From: Cercospora beticola
Taxonomy: Eukaryota > Ascomycota > Dothideomycetes > Mycosphaerellales > Mycosphaerellaceae
Direction of reading: 5' to 3'
DNA: 64,000 bases
NCBI RefSeq assembly: GCF_033473495.1
Contig: NC_088935.1
Coordinates: 248,001 to 312,000, forward strand
The notes under the pieces are model-generated. The model saw nothing but the letters and a program-made list of their open reading frames with translations. It was not told the origin of the DNA and did no database searches. This document shows, piece after piece, positions 9,057-14,896 of this stretch (position 1 is the stretch's first letter; each line of letters opens with the position of its first letter). The translations under genes and the position numbers were made by a program.

Positions 9057-9831
9057 TCAGTGCTGCTGCTTTTCTCTCTGCCTCTGGACGTGTTCATCGA
9101 ATCTCTTCCAGGCAAAGACTCCCTCAATGAAGATCGAAGCATTCCACAGCCACCATTGCAAAGAGCGCACATTGACAGAGTGCTGTGGAAGCTTGGTCAG
9201 TGAGAAATATAGCATCTCACTGCCATGTACGGCAGCCAAGCCTATCAGGAGCCACGGCTGAATCGTCCAGGCGAACTTCGCAAAAGAGCTGCCGAACAAC
9301 TGCTCTACAATTTGGCCTTTCTCAAACCACCAGCGCTGGCTATAGGCCACAGCTGTGATGAGAATGCCCACAAAGGGAATCGCACGTGCTCCAGTGGGTG
9401 GGACATAGGCCTTGACAGTAACATCGGACTGCCCCAGAGCTTTGCGACACTCCCGATCAAACTCGACCACGCGTTCGCGCGCCTCCCGTAAAGAGCTCAT
9501 GGGAGGCTCAAATGGCACTCTGATTGTCGTTCCGTGACACGAGAGGGAGAGTGCATTGAGGTCCACGTCTGTCACTTCGCCGTCGTATGCTTTCCAGGAC
9601 GGAATCTTGCCATAATGCTGCAAATAGCGAACGACCTGCCCCATGGTCAGTCATTGCGGGTCGAAGTCTGGTATGTCAGTACGCACAGAATCATGATGAT
9701 CATTGTTCTGAGAGGTGTTACTCGGCATTCATTCGTTGTATCATTTCGACTTCAAGTCTCATCCTTACCATGTGCTTGATGATCCGCGTCTTCGCCGCAG
9801 CAGCATCGGGAGCTGCTCCTTTGCTCGTCAT
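9057..9831 (-). CDS. DUF2470-domain integral membrane protein
   Basis: Three exons are proposed: 9831-9769, a 21-nt micro-exon 9707-9687, and 9635-9057. They give about 220 aa. All junctions are phase 0 with GTAAGG/CAG and GTGCGT/CAG borders. The join reads RIIKHMNNDHHDSVVRYLQH, the signature N-terminus of the DUF2470 fold, which is related to the C-terminal half of haem-iron-utilisation/PNPOx-like proteins. The domain covers about residues 15-95. It is followed by three or four hydrophobic segments (AIPFVGILITAVAYS, WTIQPWLLIGLAAV, LQWWLWNASIFIEGVFAW). Fungal members with this layout have no firm function that I know; a membrane location is inferred. The micro-exon is needed to complete the conserved HMN-DHH motif, which supports it. 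Confidence 0.82.
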
Positions 9832-10653: not shown

Positions 10654-11397
10654 ATGTCATCTCAGCAGGAAGAGCAATCTGCTAGCGTATCAGGCTCCGG
10701 GGGTGCGAACGCTGGACTGAACGCTTCTGGCAGCGCGGAAACGAACAGCAAAACCACCAAGAAGACGCCTAAAAAGCTGGGCCAGAAGAAACAAGAGCAA
10801 CAGCCAACGCCAGAACAAACAGACGAAGCCGAAGCCGAAGGCGGCGCCGAACAAGAAGCATCAGCTGAAGCCGACGCAGAAGGCGACGGCGAAGCAGAAG
10901 CCGAACCACAAATGGAGGCCGAGCAGCAACAAGAGCAATCTCGCCAGCAATCTCGTCGCCGCCAGAGTCGAGGTCGCGGCCGCAAAGGAGGCCAGCAGGA
11001 GAGCGACACCGAGTCTATTGCGCGAAGCGACCAGAGCGCCGCAGGTGGTCGCCGTCAGCGCCAACGCCAAAAGAAGCAGCAACAGCAAACCAAGAACTCG
11101 CAAGGCGGTCCTCTGGACGGCATCACTGAAGACCTGCCTGGTGGAGAAGCTGTCGGCCAGGCCGGCGAGCTCGTTCAGAACACTGCCGGTAACGCAGTCA
11201 ACAGTGTGGGTGACACTGCCGGAAAGGCATTGGGTGGTCTCACCGGTGGAGGCAAGCAGGGTCAGGAGCAAGGCGGCGGAGAGGAAGATGGTGGTGGCGG
11301 CGAGCAGCTGCGTTTGAGACTGGAGCTGAACCTCGACATTGAGATCCAATTGAAGGCAAAGATCCATGGTGACCTTACTCTTGGTTTGCTCAACTAG
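10654..11397 (+). CDS. Unknown Glu/Gln-rich protein with alternating C-terminal beta motif (motif gene A)
   Basis: Single exon, 247 aa, starting MSSQQEEQSASVSGSGG. Residues 1-60 are Ser/Gly/Lys-rich. Residues 60-100 are strongly acidic with EAEAEG-type repeats. Residues 100-145 are Arg/Gln-rich with SRGRGRKGG. A Gly-rich amphipathic stretch (GELVQNTAGNAVNSVGDT) follows. The last 28 residues before the final Asn alternate almost perfectly between hydrophobic and polar (starting LRLRLELNLD, ending DLTLGLL). The body looks disordered, so the C-terminus is probably the only ordered part. The same motif ends the next gene downstream, on the same strand 1 kb away. I do not recognise a named family. 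The reading frame is firm: one uninterrupted frame with a clear coding bias. Confidence 0.75.
   Translation: MSSQQEEQSASVSGSGGANAGLNASGSAETNSKTTKKTPKKLGQKKQEQQPTPEQTDEAEAEGGAEQEASAEADAEGDGEAEAEPQMEAEQQQEQSRQQSRRRQSRGRGRKGGQQESDTESIARSDQSAAGGRRQRQRQKKQQQQTKNSQGGPLDGITEDLPGGEAVGQAGELVQNTAGNAVNSVGDTAGKALGGLTGGGKQGQEQGGGEEDGGGGEQLRLRLELNLDIEIQLKAKIHGDLTLGLLN
11308..11391 (+). other. C-terminal alternating motif, copy in gene A
   Basis: 28 codons. Odd positions are Leu/Ile/Ala and even positions are charged or polar, up to a Gly-Asp pair that could form a turn. Over 27 aligned residues, 19 are identical to the copy at 12951-13031. Confidence 0.8.
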
Positions 11398-12411
11398 ACT
11401 ACTACAAAGGGCGTATGGCGCGAAAAGCAGAGTTTTGTTTCTTATGGATAATTGCATGATGTTACCGAGGGAGCTGGATTGGACGACTGTGTAATCGTAG
11501 ATGATGGTTGCAATGACGAGACTTTTTACCCAAGTTTGACTATGATCGATGTCTGCGAGCTGATTACCTGCTTGGCGAGGCTCTGTCACTCTCACTTTGA
11601 GCCCTTGATGACGCCGGACTTCGCGCCTACCATGAACCTTGTCAGATACATCACGATACATCTCTTGACGCAGACACAACTCATGTACTCTTTCCAATGA
11701 CGACAAATGATCAGCCGTGGAAAAGAATACGAGTCTCCAAGCCGGAACCCAGCCTCGCAGTGTTTCATCCTCTGGATTGATGGAATGTCGGGTCCGTGGG
11801 AAGCGGCCTGCTGCCAGCTTGCCAGGTTTTGCGGCTGCACGTCGAAGCTGCAAAGCAGGTGTCGTCTTGCACGCATGCGAAGCTAGCCACACACGATGAT
11901 CAAAACCTTGAGTCTAATGCCACATATTCCACGTTGCTTGCCAGGCGACTTGCTTCCTGATTGCACTTCCAGGCGCGAGTGGTGCGGGCCGCCGAGGCAT
12001 TGCGTGTCCCAGGCGTAAAGTGCTTGCAGGAAGGATGAAGTCACAAAACTGGGTACCTGTGGCGGTGCGCACAGGGATACCACTCCGCAAGACGCAACAT
12101 GCAGAGGCGATGGTCGTGCGATCGGCTGGAAACAGGTTTCATTGCGTCTGGTGCTCGCTGGCGATTCATAGCGGGTCTGAAGGGCAGGTGTGAGGTGGGT
12201 ACTGTGTGCTGCTGACGGCAGACGAGGCGAGTCCAGGTTCCTGTTCGTTGTGTTCGCTCTCTTGCATTTTGGTCGTTTTCACCAGTCTTTCGTGCCGACT
12301 CCATCGTATACTCACTGCAGGAACACGTCGCCGATACACCTGGACACGGCTTGAAAGCGACTTGCATACCACATACTCCCCGGATATCTTTAGCCCACGC
12401 TGGGGGCCAAG
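11398..12411. other. Intergenic region between motif genes A and B
   Basis: No supported gene. It contains 12128-12139 and 12141-12154, short blocks also found upstream of gene A. Long antisense frames here are Leu-rich shadows. Confidence 0.45.
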
Positions 12412-13034
12412 ATGGCGGACAAGATCAACAATGAGTCGTACCGAAAGAAGTACAACGAGCAGCCGAAGCTCGAGCACCTGTCAGAGGAAACCTTGAAGAA
12501 TCCACCAAAGCAGAGGACAGTCCAACAACAGGAGAAACAGGACCGTCTCATCAAGAAAGAAAAGCGGGAAGCAGGTCTTGAGTCTAACCGATCACGATCA
12601 TCTTCACGAAGAGAGCGAAGGAAGCGTATTCAGCAAGCCATGACAGATGGCAAGTATATGAAAACAGGCTCGCTGGAGGCTTTGGAAGAGGCAGATGCCA
12701 ATGGAGACCTTGATCAACAACGACCATTCGAGCGGATAGGTCCCGACAGCACATCTATGGACGGTCCTGTCACGCATGCTCGAGCTATGCGAGGAGAGAT
12801 TCCAGTTCGTGGCTCAAACCCGAATCAACCATACTATATCACGCCGCAAGAAGAGGAGAGCAATGGGGTACGTTATCCTCCATCGCCGGCCTACAAAAGT
12901 CGCCTCGTGAGACTAACCTGTTCCAGTCAGCCCTGAAAGACACCGACGGTCTCAAGCTCACACTGGAAGCCAACCTTGATGTCGAGATTGAATTGAAAGC
13001 CAGTATTCGCGGCGATCTCACACTATCACTATAG
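12412..13034 (+). CDS. Unknown Lys/Glu/Arg-rich protein with alternating C-terminal beta motif (motif gene B)
   Basis: Two exons, 12412-12867 and 12927-13034, with a phase-0 59-nt intron (GTACGT donor, GACTAACC branch, CAG acceptor). They encode 187 aa. The N-terminal 150 residues are charged and probably helical or disordered (MADKINNESYRKKYNEQPK, then RSRSSSRRERRKR). Exon 2 encodes almost nothing but the motif shared with gene A: LKLTLEANLD, VEIELKASI, then RGDLTLSL and stop. The motif is thus a separate exon here but part of a single exon in gene A. The stop TAG overlaps a perfect GTAAGT donor, so a further exon cannot be excluded. No family recognised. Confidence 0.72.
12951..13031 (+). 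other. C-terminal alternating motif, copy in gene B
   Basis: 27 codons encoded by the second exon, 19 of 27 residues identical to the gene A copy. The invariant core includes the NLD-E-I-L-KA-I pattern and a Gly-Asp-Leu-Thr-Leu end. Confidence 0.8.
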
Positions 13035-13965
13035 TAAGTTGCCATCCCCCAACTCGTGTTCCCCATTCGAGAGCAGTACTGTGCATTCTTCATGCCAAAG
13101 GAGGGAAGAAGAACTCAACGCTACTGTTTCTCGAGCTCTAGAAGATCACACAATAACAGTCGTGAACTTCTAGTGCATGAAGAAGAGGTGTTTTAACATG
13201 TCCAATGTGTATTGATTGACACCACAAGCGAATCTGAACGCAATTCGGAGCAGAGTTGCTGACAAGTTTTTCTCTCCGCAGCGAGTAATTGAGAGGTCTT
13301 TAGCGATACGTGATGTCGCATCAGATTGGAGGAACGATATCAGATGGCGTGGTTTTGAGCATAGTTCGATGAGTGCTGTTAAAGATCTTTGGAAGTTCGG
13401 TGTAATGGAGTAAGAGAGTTAGTGGGAATTGAATGAATAGCGGCAGTCAAATCCAGTAATGCCCTTCGCAAGGAAGTTGCCTGTTCCATCATACTTGTAT
13501 CAGCTCACGGAATGGTCAACTTTAGCTTTGCATATGATAACGATGTCTCGCTACCATTTTCCGCTTCTGCTGGACAGATGTGGCCGAACGCTCGATGGAA
13601 CAGCAGCATCTTCCAATAATGCCAAACTTTTGTTGGCGAGGTACGATGCTGTGCATCTGACATTCCATGAGTCCACAAAATCAGGGACTTTTTTATATTG
13701 CGAAGAGGTACAAACGATGTTCGATACCCCTCATCAAGAGACCGAAAATGTATCTCACAAGTCCGCAAAAGCCCAAGTTAAAGCCAACGCCAAAAAGCTC
13801 CAGGATTTTGGCTTTCAGAAGTCCTGGGCGCCGCAATCGCAATCCGTAATCTCCATGCCCCACAATCGTGACTCTCTCGTTCTGGGCCCCCACCATTAAC
13901 GAGCAAGTTAACAGAAAAGCCAACTTACAATAAGAAGTTATCGAGCCACAAGCACAGCGCAAACA
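13035..13965. other. Intergenic region upstream of ureG
   Basis: An open frame at 13459-13899 has no protein-like character and is not called. A TGATAA site at 13535-13540 fits the GATA-factor (AreA/Nit2) consensus, which would suit a nitrogen gene, but a single hexamer is weak evidence. Confidence 0.4.
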
Positions 13966-14896
13966 ATGTCAGGCCACAGCCATTCACACGAAGGCGGAGC
14001 ATCCCACTCTCATGCCGCCGCAGACCATGGCCACACGCACGAGATCCTCGATGGACCGGGCTCCTTCCTGAGACGTGAAATGCCCATTATAGAAGGTCGA
14101 GATTGGAAAGATCGAGCTTTCACTGTTGGGATTGGCGGGTACGTCTCCTTCTTCTCTTCAGAACTTATCAACATGACATACCGAAGCAAAGCATACTCAC
14201 ATTTCCTCTTCTTCTTTCTGGCACAGACCCGTCGGCTCAGGCAAAACAGCCCTCATGCTCGCCCTCTGCCTCGCCCTGCGAGAAAAATACAACATCGCAG
14301 CCGTAACAAACGACATCTTCACCCGTGAAGACTGCGAATTCCTCACCCGTCACAAAGCTCTCCCTGCAGAACGCATTCGGGCCATTGAGACAGGAGGTTG
14401 TCCTCACGCTGCAGTTCGCGAAGATATTTCGCAAAATCTTGCAGCGTTGCAAGATTTGCAGAAGGAGTTTCAAACTGACCTTTTGTTGATTGAATCCGGA
14501 GGCGATAATTTGGCGGCGAATTATTCGAGGGAGTTGGCGGATTATATTATTTATGTGATTGATGTTAGTGGAGGGGATAAGATTCCGAGGAAGGGAGGGC
14601 CGGGGATTACGCAGAGTGATTTGTTGATTGTGAATAAGACGGATCTGGCGGAGTTGATTGGGGCGGATTTGGGGGTGATGGATAGGGATGCGAGGAAGAT
14701 AAGGTGAGTTTGTCTTTCCTTTCTTTTTCTTTCTGGCTTATTGGAGATGAAGCTGACAGCATATGACAGAGAGGGTGGGCCAACGATATTTGCCCAGGTG
14801 AAGAATGGGAAGGGTGTAGACCAGATTGTGGACCTCATTTTGAGTGCATGGAGGAGCTCAGGCGCTGCCGCGACCACGAGCAATCCCAACAAGTGA
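13966..14896 (+). CDS. ureG: Urease accessory GTPase UreG
   Basis: Three exons, 13966-14138, 14227-14703 and 14770-14896, encode 258 aa. The N-terminus is His-rich (HSHSHEGG, then [13 protein letters not shown]), a likely nickel-binding extension. The first junction completes the P-loop GPVGSGKT. Later motifs are [31 protein letters not shown] with the Cys-Pro-His metal site, [30 protein letters not shown] and the GTPase specificity motif NKTD. UreG hydrolyses GTP while passing nickel to apo-urease with the UreD/UreF partners in the cytosol. Length and motif order are those of complete fungal UreG. No other urease gene is in the window. The coding strand switches from C-rich to G-rich part-way through exon 2. 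Confidence 0.95.

Follow-up and report, generated by a model that had tools for sequence, protein, structure and literature searches.

A C-terminal module of two types, shared by neighbouring genes of Cercospora beticola and conserved in filamentous ascomycetes, as a possible beta-assembly tag

Why do two neighbouring genes encoding largely dissimilar proteins end in a related short tail? The question is raised by a 64,000-nucleotide stretch of the Cercospora beticola genome (RefSeq assembly GCF_033473495.1, contig NC_088935.1, positions 248,001 to 312,000 of the forward strand; the window, whose own coordinates are used below). Gene 1 (10654..11397) and gene 2 (from 12412) lie on its plus strand, separated by 1,014 bases, and each ends in a C-terminal module on that strand, type 1 in gene 1 (residues 217-247; 11302..11394) and type 2 in gene 2 (residues 159-187; 12945..13031). 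The gene 1 protein terminates with EQLRLRLELNLDIEIQLKAKIHGDLTLGLLN, followed by a TAG stop (11395-11397), and the gene 2 protein, 187 residues up to the TAG at 13032-13034 if unspliced, terminates with DGLKLTLEANLDVEIELKASIRGDLTLSL. The 27-residue tails are identical at 19 positions and both have the hydrophobic (h) and polar (p) pattern hphphphphphphphphphppphphph. Among 100,000 shuffles preserving this pattern, identities averaged 7.66 and peaked at 18, none reaching 19, and the top 27-residue match in 60 full shuffles of both whole proteins was 12. These results bear out the original prediction, made from the DNA letters, that two same-strand genes about 1 kb apart share a C-terminal module of about 27 residues.

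The tail DNA of the two genes is identical at 47 of 81 positions and the same codon is used at only four of the 19 identical residues. Nothing in this suggests a recent duplication or gene conversion, and the relationship between the tails is apparently an old one, held by selection on the protein. When profiles of the two families were compared, only the 31-column module aligned (probability 98.6, E 8e-16). Both bodies have RS-rich basic stretches, which by eye resemble each other most when gene 1 is set beside the Fonsecaea-like type-2 proteins; this likeness hints at full-length paralogy of the type-1 and type-2 proteins.

Homologues of both proteins were sought among candidates that had to share exact 5-residue words, so that distant relatives can be missed. 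The gene 1 search returned 114 proteins at E ≤ 1, of which 110 carry the full module and four do not. The protein ends 0-3 residues after position 29 of the module in 42 of the 114 and runs on in 68; 50 of these 68 type-1 run-ons continue with LYV, eight with LSV, and ten with other letters. The LYV run-ons are probably unspliced readings of a terminal intron, because CT/GTATGT, a typical fungal splice donor, translates in this way. The gene 2 search returned 697 proteins. Among the 120 listed of these 697, 99 end 0-3 residues past the module, four run on, and 17 are without a full match. One of the 17, P0162, is an isolated case of a type-2 tail whose hydrophobic face has Arg in place of Leu at three positions; an error in the sequence or decay of the copy may be the cause. 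The other 16 have no module in the ends shown, and most of them leave the family near the site of intron 1. Most tails that run on probably reflect intron read-through or joined neighbours. The searches with both genes upheld two further parts of the original prediction, the C-terminal place of the module and the presence of similar tails in other filamentous ascomycetes, and ruled out that it is confined to this pair.

Named homologues come from at least five classes, all within the Pezizomycotina: Dothideomycetes, Eurotiomycetes, Sordariomycetes, Lecanoromycetes, and Geoglossomycetes (lineages checked for Glutinoglossum, Physcia, and Cercospora; other class placements are from general knowledge). 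Many homologues are metagenome proteins without a species name. Two metagenome sequences were set aside as likely chimeric: P0084, where the module is preceded by a resolvase N-terminal domain, and P0086, in which a gene-1 N-terminus is joined to an AMPKBI domain without the module. A pattern scan of contigs from prokaryote genomes gave 46 matches but no confirmed relative.

Tails were collected by pattern from 244 of 266 proteins, the 22 without a pattern match being left out of the type tables. They comprise 128 type-1 and 117 type-2 instances (40 and 41 distinct 27-mers, respectively), sorted by the residue before position 3, which is Gly in type 2. The pattern used for collecting had N10 and G23 fixed, limited positions 12 (D/E), 18 (K/R/Q), 24 (D/N), and 26 (T/E/C), and specified mainly hydrophobic letters at odd positions to 17 and at 21, with Q or R also allowed at some; positions 4, 6, 8, 14, 16, 19, 20, 22, 25, and 28 were left free. 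Alternation over positions 3-21 is present in all 81 distinct tails, and the informative test of it is that the free positions 4, 6, 8, 14, 16, and 20 are polar in 81 of 81. At the free positions 14 and 19, Glu is found in 81/81 and Ala in 80/81 distinct tails; K18 is found in 81/81, where K, R, or Q was allowed, and D24 in 80/81, where D or N was allowed. The types differ at polar sites. Position 16 is Glu in 117/117 type-2 tails and Gln or Thr in 123/128 type-1 tails, with Glu in the remaining five, and position 20 is Lys or Arg in 128/128 type-1 and Ser in 110/117 type-2 tails. No length change was detected among the collected tails.

Searches of the C. beticola genome (36.07 Mb, 10 contigs) with two module queries and a degenerate pattern recovered no copies beyond those of gene 1 and gene 2; the degenerate pattern matched at 15 places, and the 13 others have no alternating strand before them. 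That only two copies were found favours a self-contained system of two proteins over a hub serving many clients. A search for long proteins, with a query of length 793 scored over residues 1-90, returned 32 proteins at E ≤ 10, 31 with the full module and one, P0266, with a cut module. Precomputed Pfam annotation gives DUF3659 for 11 of these, TrmE domains for eight, other domains for four, and none for nine. When 15 of the 32 were rescanned with hmmscan, the domains that scored above cut-off were F-box-like, GAS2, alpha/beta hydrolase, and TrmE, and the nine carriers without a precomputed domain again gave no match above cut-off. No NLR (NOD-like receptor; NACHT/NB-ARC) or HeLo domain was found in the 32 by precomputed Pfam or in the 15 rescanned.

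True gene fusions (with TrmE, DUF3659, F-box, and others) were rejected, and we read the long models as gene-caller joins at the terminal intron, because the partners follow lineage, the junctions differ between related species, and the join is splice-donor-like. A likely start Met of the neighbour can be recognized by eye inside each of P0240 and P0246. Gene order outside the window was read from joined models only. A type-1 protein is followed by a type-2 body in P0247 (Pyrenophora), and a type-2 tail by a type-1 protein in P0235 and P0236 (Aspergillus terricola and A. tetrazonus). Linkage of the pair thus extends to both Dothideomycetes and Eurotiomycetes, and either gene may come first. 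Whether the genes are paired elsewhere, as the original prediction asked, is therefore answered by neighbouring pairs in Pyrenophora and two Aspergillus species.

The hydrophobic moment of the two tails is 0.68 and 0.54 at 170 degrees (strand) and 0.06 and 0.15 at 100 degrees (helix), and the strand moment was reached by 70 and 24 of 20,000 shuffles. The predicted one-by-one alternation is confirmed and a beta-type pattern is supported by the sequence, from which we infer beta structure itself. A shared module of two types, its C-terminal place, its linkage in several lineages, and its unvarying length among the collected tails are established. We tentatively propose that the tail is a C-terminal beta-assembly tag, of two types, on basic, RS/RG-rich, largely disordered proteins. 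It would consist of one long amphipathic strand (positions 3-21), an H/R-G-D turn (22-24), and a short second strand (25-29). These strands would not fold alone, and tails would pair edge to edge with copies of the same or the other type, giving small oligomers or short stacks. The tag would in this way cluster the two proteins encoded by the neighbouring genes, perhaps as a scaffold of a ribonucleoprotein or other body; a role with RNA is suggested by the RS/RG-rich stretches, the only hint of one. We favour assembly because two carriers were found, their genes are linked, the types differ at polar sites, the length is constant, and the tail has no fold alone. A more specific proposal, which we consider unlikely, is that tails of the two types co-assemble through matching polar faces and so set the composition of a fungal-specific body of RS/RG-rich disordered proteins.

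Several results weigh against assembly. In AlphaFold2 monomer models, with a mean predicted local distance difference test score (pLDDT) of 61.1 for gene 2 (58 alignment rows) and 48.6 for gene 1 (36 rows), the module of both families is a low-confidence helix with no strands (pLDDT ~48-58), which is neither a self-pairing module nor a lone strand in a globular domain; a monomer model on so shallow an alignment cannot, in our view, decide between strand and helix. Charge complementarity in antiparallel pairing was equalled by shuffles in fractions of 0.67 (type 1 with type 1), 0.90 (type 2 with type 2), and 0.60 (type 1 with type 2), with no register favoured over shuffles. Parallel in-register stacking would put like charges on each other. 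A search among solved structures found no relative, and the genome count of two is a lower bound, only the best candidates having been scored.

Nearly as probable as assembly is docking onto a single shared partner. The tail would then be a short linear motif that binds a globular partner, either joining it as an added strand or folding on it, with the two proteins as alternative clients. We regard this as a serious possibility, as the module has no fold alone in AlphaFold2, its free polar positions are conserved like the hydrophobic ones, as a buried strand needs, and C-terminal tails are in general often docking motifs. However, a hub motif would be expected to have more carriers than the two found in the genome, docking motifs are generally shorter than a stretch of about 29 residues free of insertions and deletions, and a linked gene pair is better suited to mutual assembly.

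The hydrophobic face of the tail, clear over 19 residues and reflected in the strand moments of 0.68 and 0.54 at 170 degrees, could instead lie on a lipid droplet or membrane, but E14 and K18 are fixed by identity and not by class alone, which lipid binding would not need, and we consider a lipid- or membrane-facing strand very unlikely. It is likewise highly improbable that the AlphaFold2 helix is correct and that the tail works as a helix: although a helix appears in both models, its pLDDT is ~48-58, the alignments are shallow (58 and 36 rows), and the helical moment is near zero (0.06, 0.15). Least probable of all is an NLR-linked, prion-like signalling motif through which an amyloid fold would spread from one protein to another, for although the tail is short, C-terminal, and common to adjacent genes, the 32 long carriers have no NLR or HeLo domain, both genome copies found are accounted for by gene 1 and gene 2, and no relative was confirmed in the prokaryote genomes scanned; on these grounds, and with six to seven of the 19 residues of the long strand charged, the amyloid signalling link of the original prediction was not sustained.

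Gene 1 is a single exon of 247 codons, open with an in-frame stop upstream. Its protein runs from an acidic/Q-rich N-terminus through a basic, RS/RG-rich stretch that includes SDTES and GGRRQRQRQKK (residues 94-146; 10933..11091, plus strand) and a Gly/Thr/Ala repeat-like stretch, GGPLD...TAG...TAGKALGGLTGG (residues 147-200; 11092..11253, plus strand), to an acidic-Gly linker and the module. The mean majority share of the two stretches is 0.50 and 0.59, respectively (alignment A3, 36 rows).

Gene 2 consists, on the plus strand, of exon 1 (12412..12867), intron 1 of 59 bases (12868..12926; GTACGT...CTAAC...CAG, with a branch-like CTAAC), exon 2 (12927..13033), which holds the module and little else, and a terminal intron of 140 bases (13034..13173), reconstructed to fit the public protein P0115 (C. 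beticola CB0940_00117, 189 aa). P0115 is identical to gene 2 over exon 1, agrees with the spliced reading across intron 1, is 100% identical to gene 2 over the query, and ends in LSLYA, as does the reconstructed spliced end. Because the GT of the terminal intron takes its G from the final base of the TAG codon, gene 2 ends at most two residues past the module whether spliced or not, and splicing alters the C-terminus by only two residues. With intron 1 and the terminal intron on either side, the module has an exon nearly to itself (12927-13033).

Residues 106-140 of gene 2, the PFERIGPDSTSMDGPVTHARAMRGEIPVRGSNPNQP region (12727..12831, plus strand), form a second conserved core with a mean majority share of 0.90 versus 0.91 for the tail (alignment A2, 58 rows hand-picked from 129 candidates); the rows of A2 and A3 were chosen among module-bearing matches, and the conservation figures therefore lean towards the module. 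AlphaFold2 places helices at residues 37-53 and 60-78, in blocks with a mean pLDDT of 68-83. The description of the pair as otherwise dissimilar, low-complexity proteins thus holds in that only the module aligns between them but fails for gene 2, with its core and helices, and the suggestion that the motif is the functional part was too strong for gene 2, whose second core is conserved equally. In the Aspergillus type-2 proteins P0235 and P0236 the tail is kept and the second core is, by eye, absent; in these proteins the tail has proved more lasting than the core. No Pfam-A family scored above its curated cut-off in gene 1, gene 2, or the six homologues scanned, and the above-cut-off matches in P0084, P0086, P0093, and the long models lie in parts read as joined or chimeric. 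The label PF28325 of P0090 and P0096 is not in the Pfam copy scanned, a tblastn search of the labelled part against the window gave no match, and the label may belong to an upstream neighbour.

The genes that flank the pair are ordinary: a DUF2470 gene (9057-9650, minus strand) and, downstream, a CobW/HypB/UreG-type gene (14177-14707, the part scanned, plus strand), read as encoding a urease accessory protein. A 350-residue open frame on the minus strand (10861-11913), antisense to gene 1, may simply reflect the codon bias of that gene. Gene 1 is not among public proteins of 136-432 aa, where the best match is 68% identical, and no Cercospora is named among the longer models that carry the module; C. 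beticola gene 1 seems to have been missed by public annotation at the lengths searched, despite its many relatives. In Exophiala and Fonsecaea the type-1 gene (P0241, P0250, and others) precedes TrmE, as does the type-2 gene (P0265) in Lithohypha. In black-yeast-type fungi, public TrmE models (P0241, P0245, P0250, P0252, P0253, P0259, P0265) have been run together with a type-1 or type-2 gene, and the N-termini of these TrmE models are probably wrong. P0251, labelled Aureobasidium, agrees with P0259 (Exophiala) in the module and in the 40 residues shown before it, which casts doubt on the label.

Strong conservation of the module, about 29 residues long, in five fungal classes suggests that it serves some conserved process in filamentous ascomycetes. 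The process may be undescribed, because we found no Pfam model, no solved relative, and, in a literature search by module sequence and locus tag, no paper on these proteins, although older gene names may exist. If the two types co-assemble, the tails would form a naturally occurring pair of assembly tags and add a new case to the known ways of bringing disordered proteins together.

Among known systems, foldon-like C-terminal oligomerization tags are, like the tail, about 27-30 residues long and not folded as monomers; unlike them, the tail has no sequence match to a solved structure that we found. Closer at hand are the DUF3659 or 'LEA domain' proteins, encoded beside type-1 genes in 11 of the 32 long models. 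In several Sordariomycetes the type-1 gene adjoins such a gene (P0238, P0240, P0243, P0244, P0246, P0248, P0254-P0258), and in those shown the neighbour has its own conserved, partly alternating C-terminus, DVKST.DGIQLIIKIPTVF. A relationship between this C-terminus and the module was rejected by profile comparison (probability 0.4%), and since the joined models differ at the junction they are read as two genes. DUF3659 gave no match in gene 1 or gene 2, and in P0093 its match (residues 149-194) lies beyond the module. The C. beticola genome itself contains a 2180-residue open frame with repeated DUF3659-like matches (C4:2532061-2535423). The septal-pore proteins SPA of Neurospora and SPP of Aspergillus oryzae likewise have disordered bodies and belong to filamentous ascomycetes (PMC10023807); nothing was found that ties them to the gene 1 and gene 2 proteins, no sequences having been compared.

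Fungal amyloid signalling motifs (HRAM/HET-s, sigma, PP, PUASM) likewise are short beta-type C-terminal modules of neighbouring genes in filamentous ascomycetes, and a short C-terminal motif in adjacent genes is what the C. beticola pair has. No copy was found at the N-terminus of an NLR, either in the genome, where both copies found are in gene 1 and gene 2, or among the 32 long carriers, and no effector domain (HeLo, HeLo-like, PNP_UDP, and the like) scored above its Pfam cut-off in gene 1 or gene 2. In place of NLR or known effector domains, the carriers seen are two largely disordered proteins, and the tail differs from these motifs in its nearly uniform sequence, strict one-by-one alternation, and many charges. 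Bacterial amyloid signalling motifs in one training set span 21-40 residues (PMC12261475). Compared with fungal NLR amyloid systems, the tail agrees in place and length but fails the defining partner and effector features (PMC9815663, PMC12261475). Were co-assembly of the two types true, the system would be a non-NLR cousin of amyloid signalling pairs, in logic and not in descent, spread over at least five classes of fungi.
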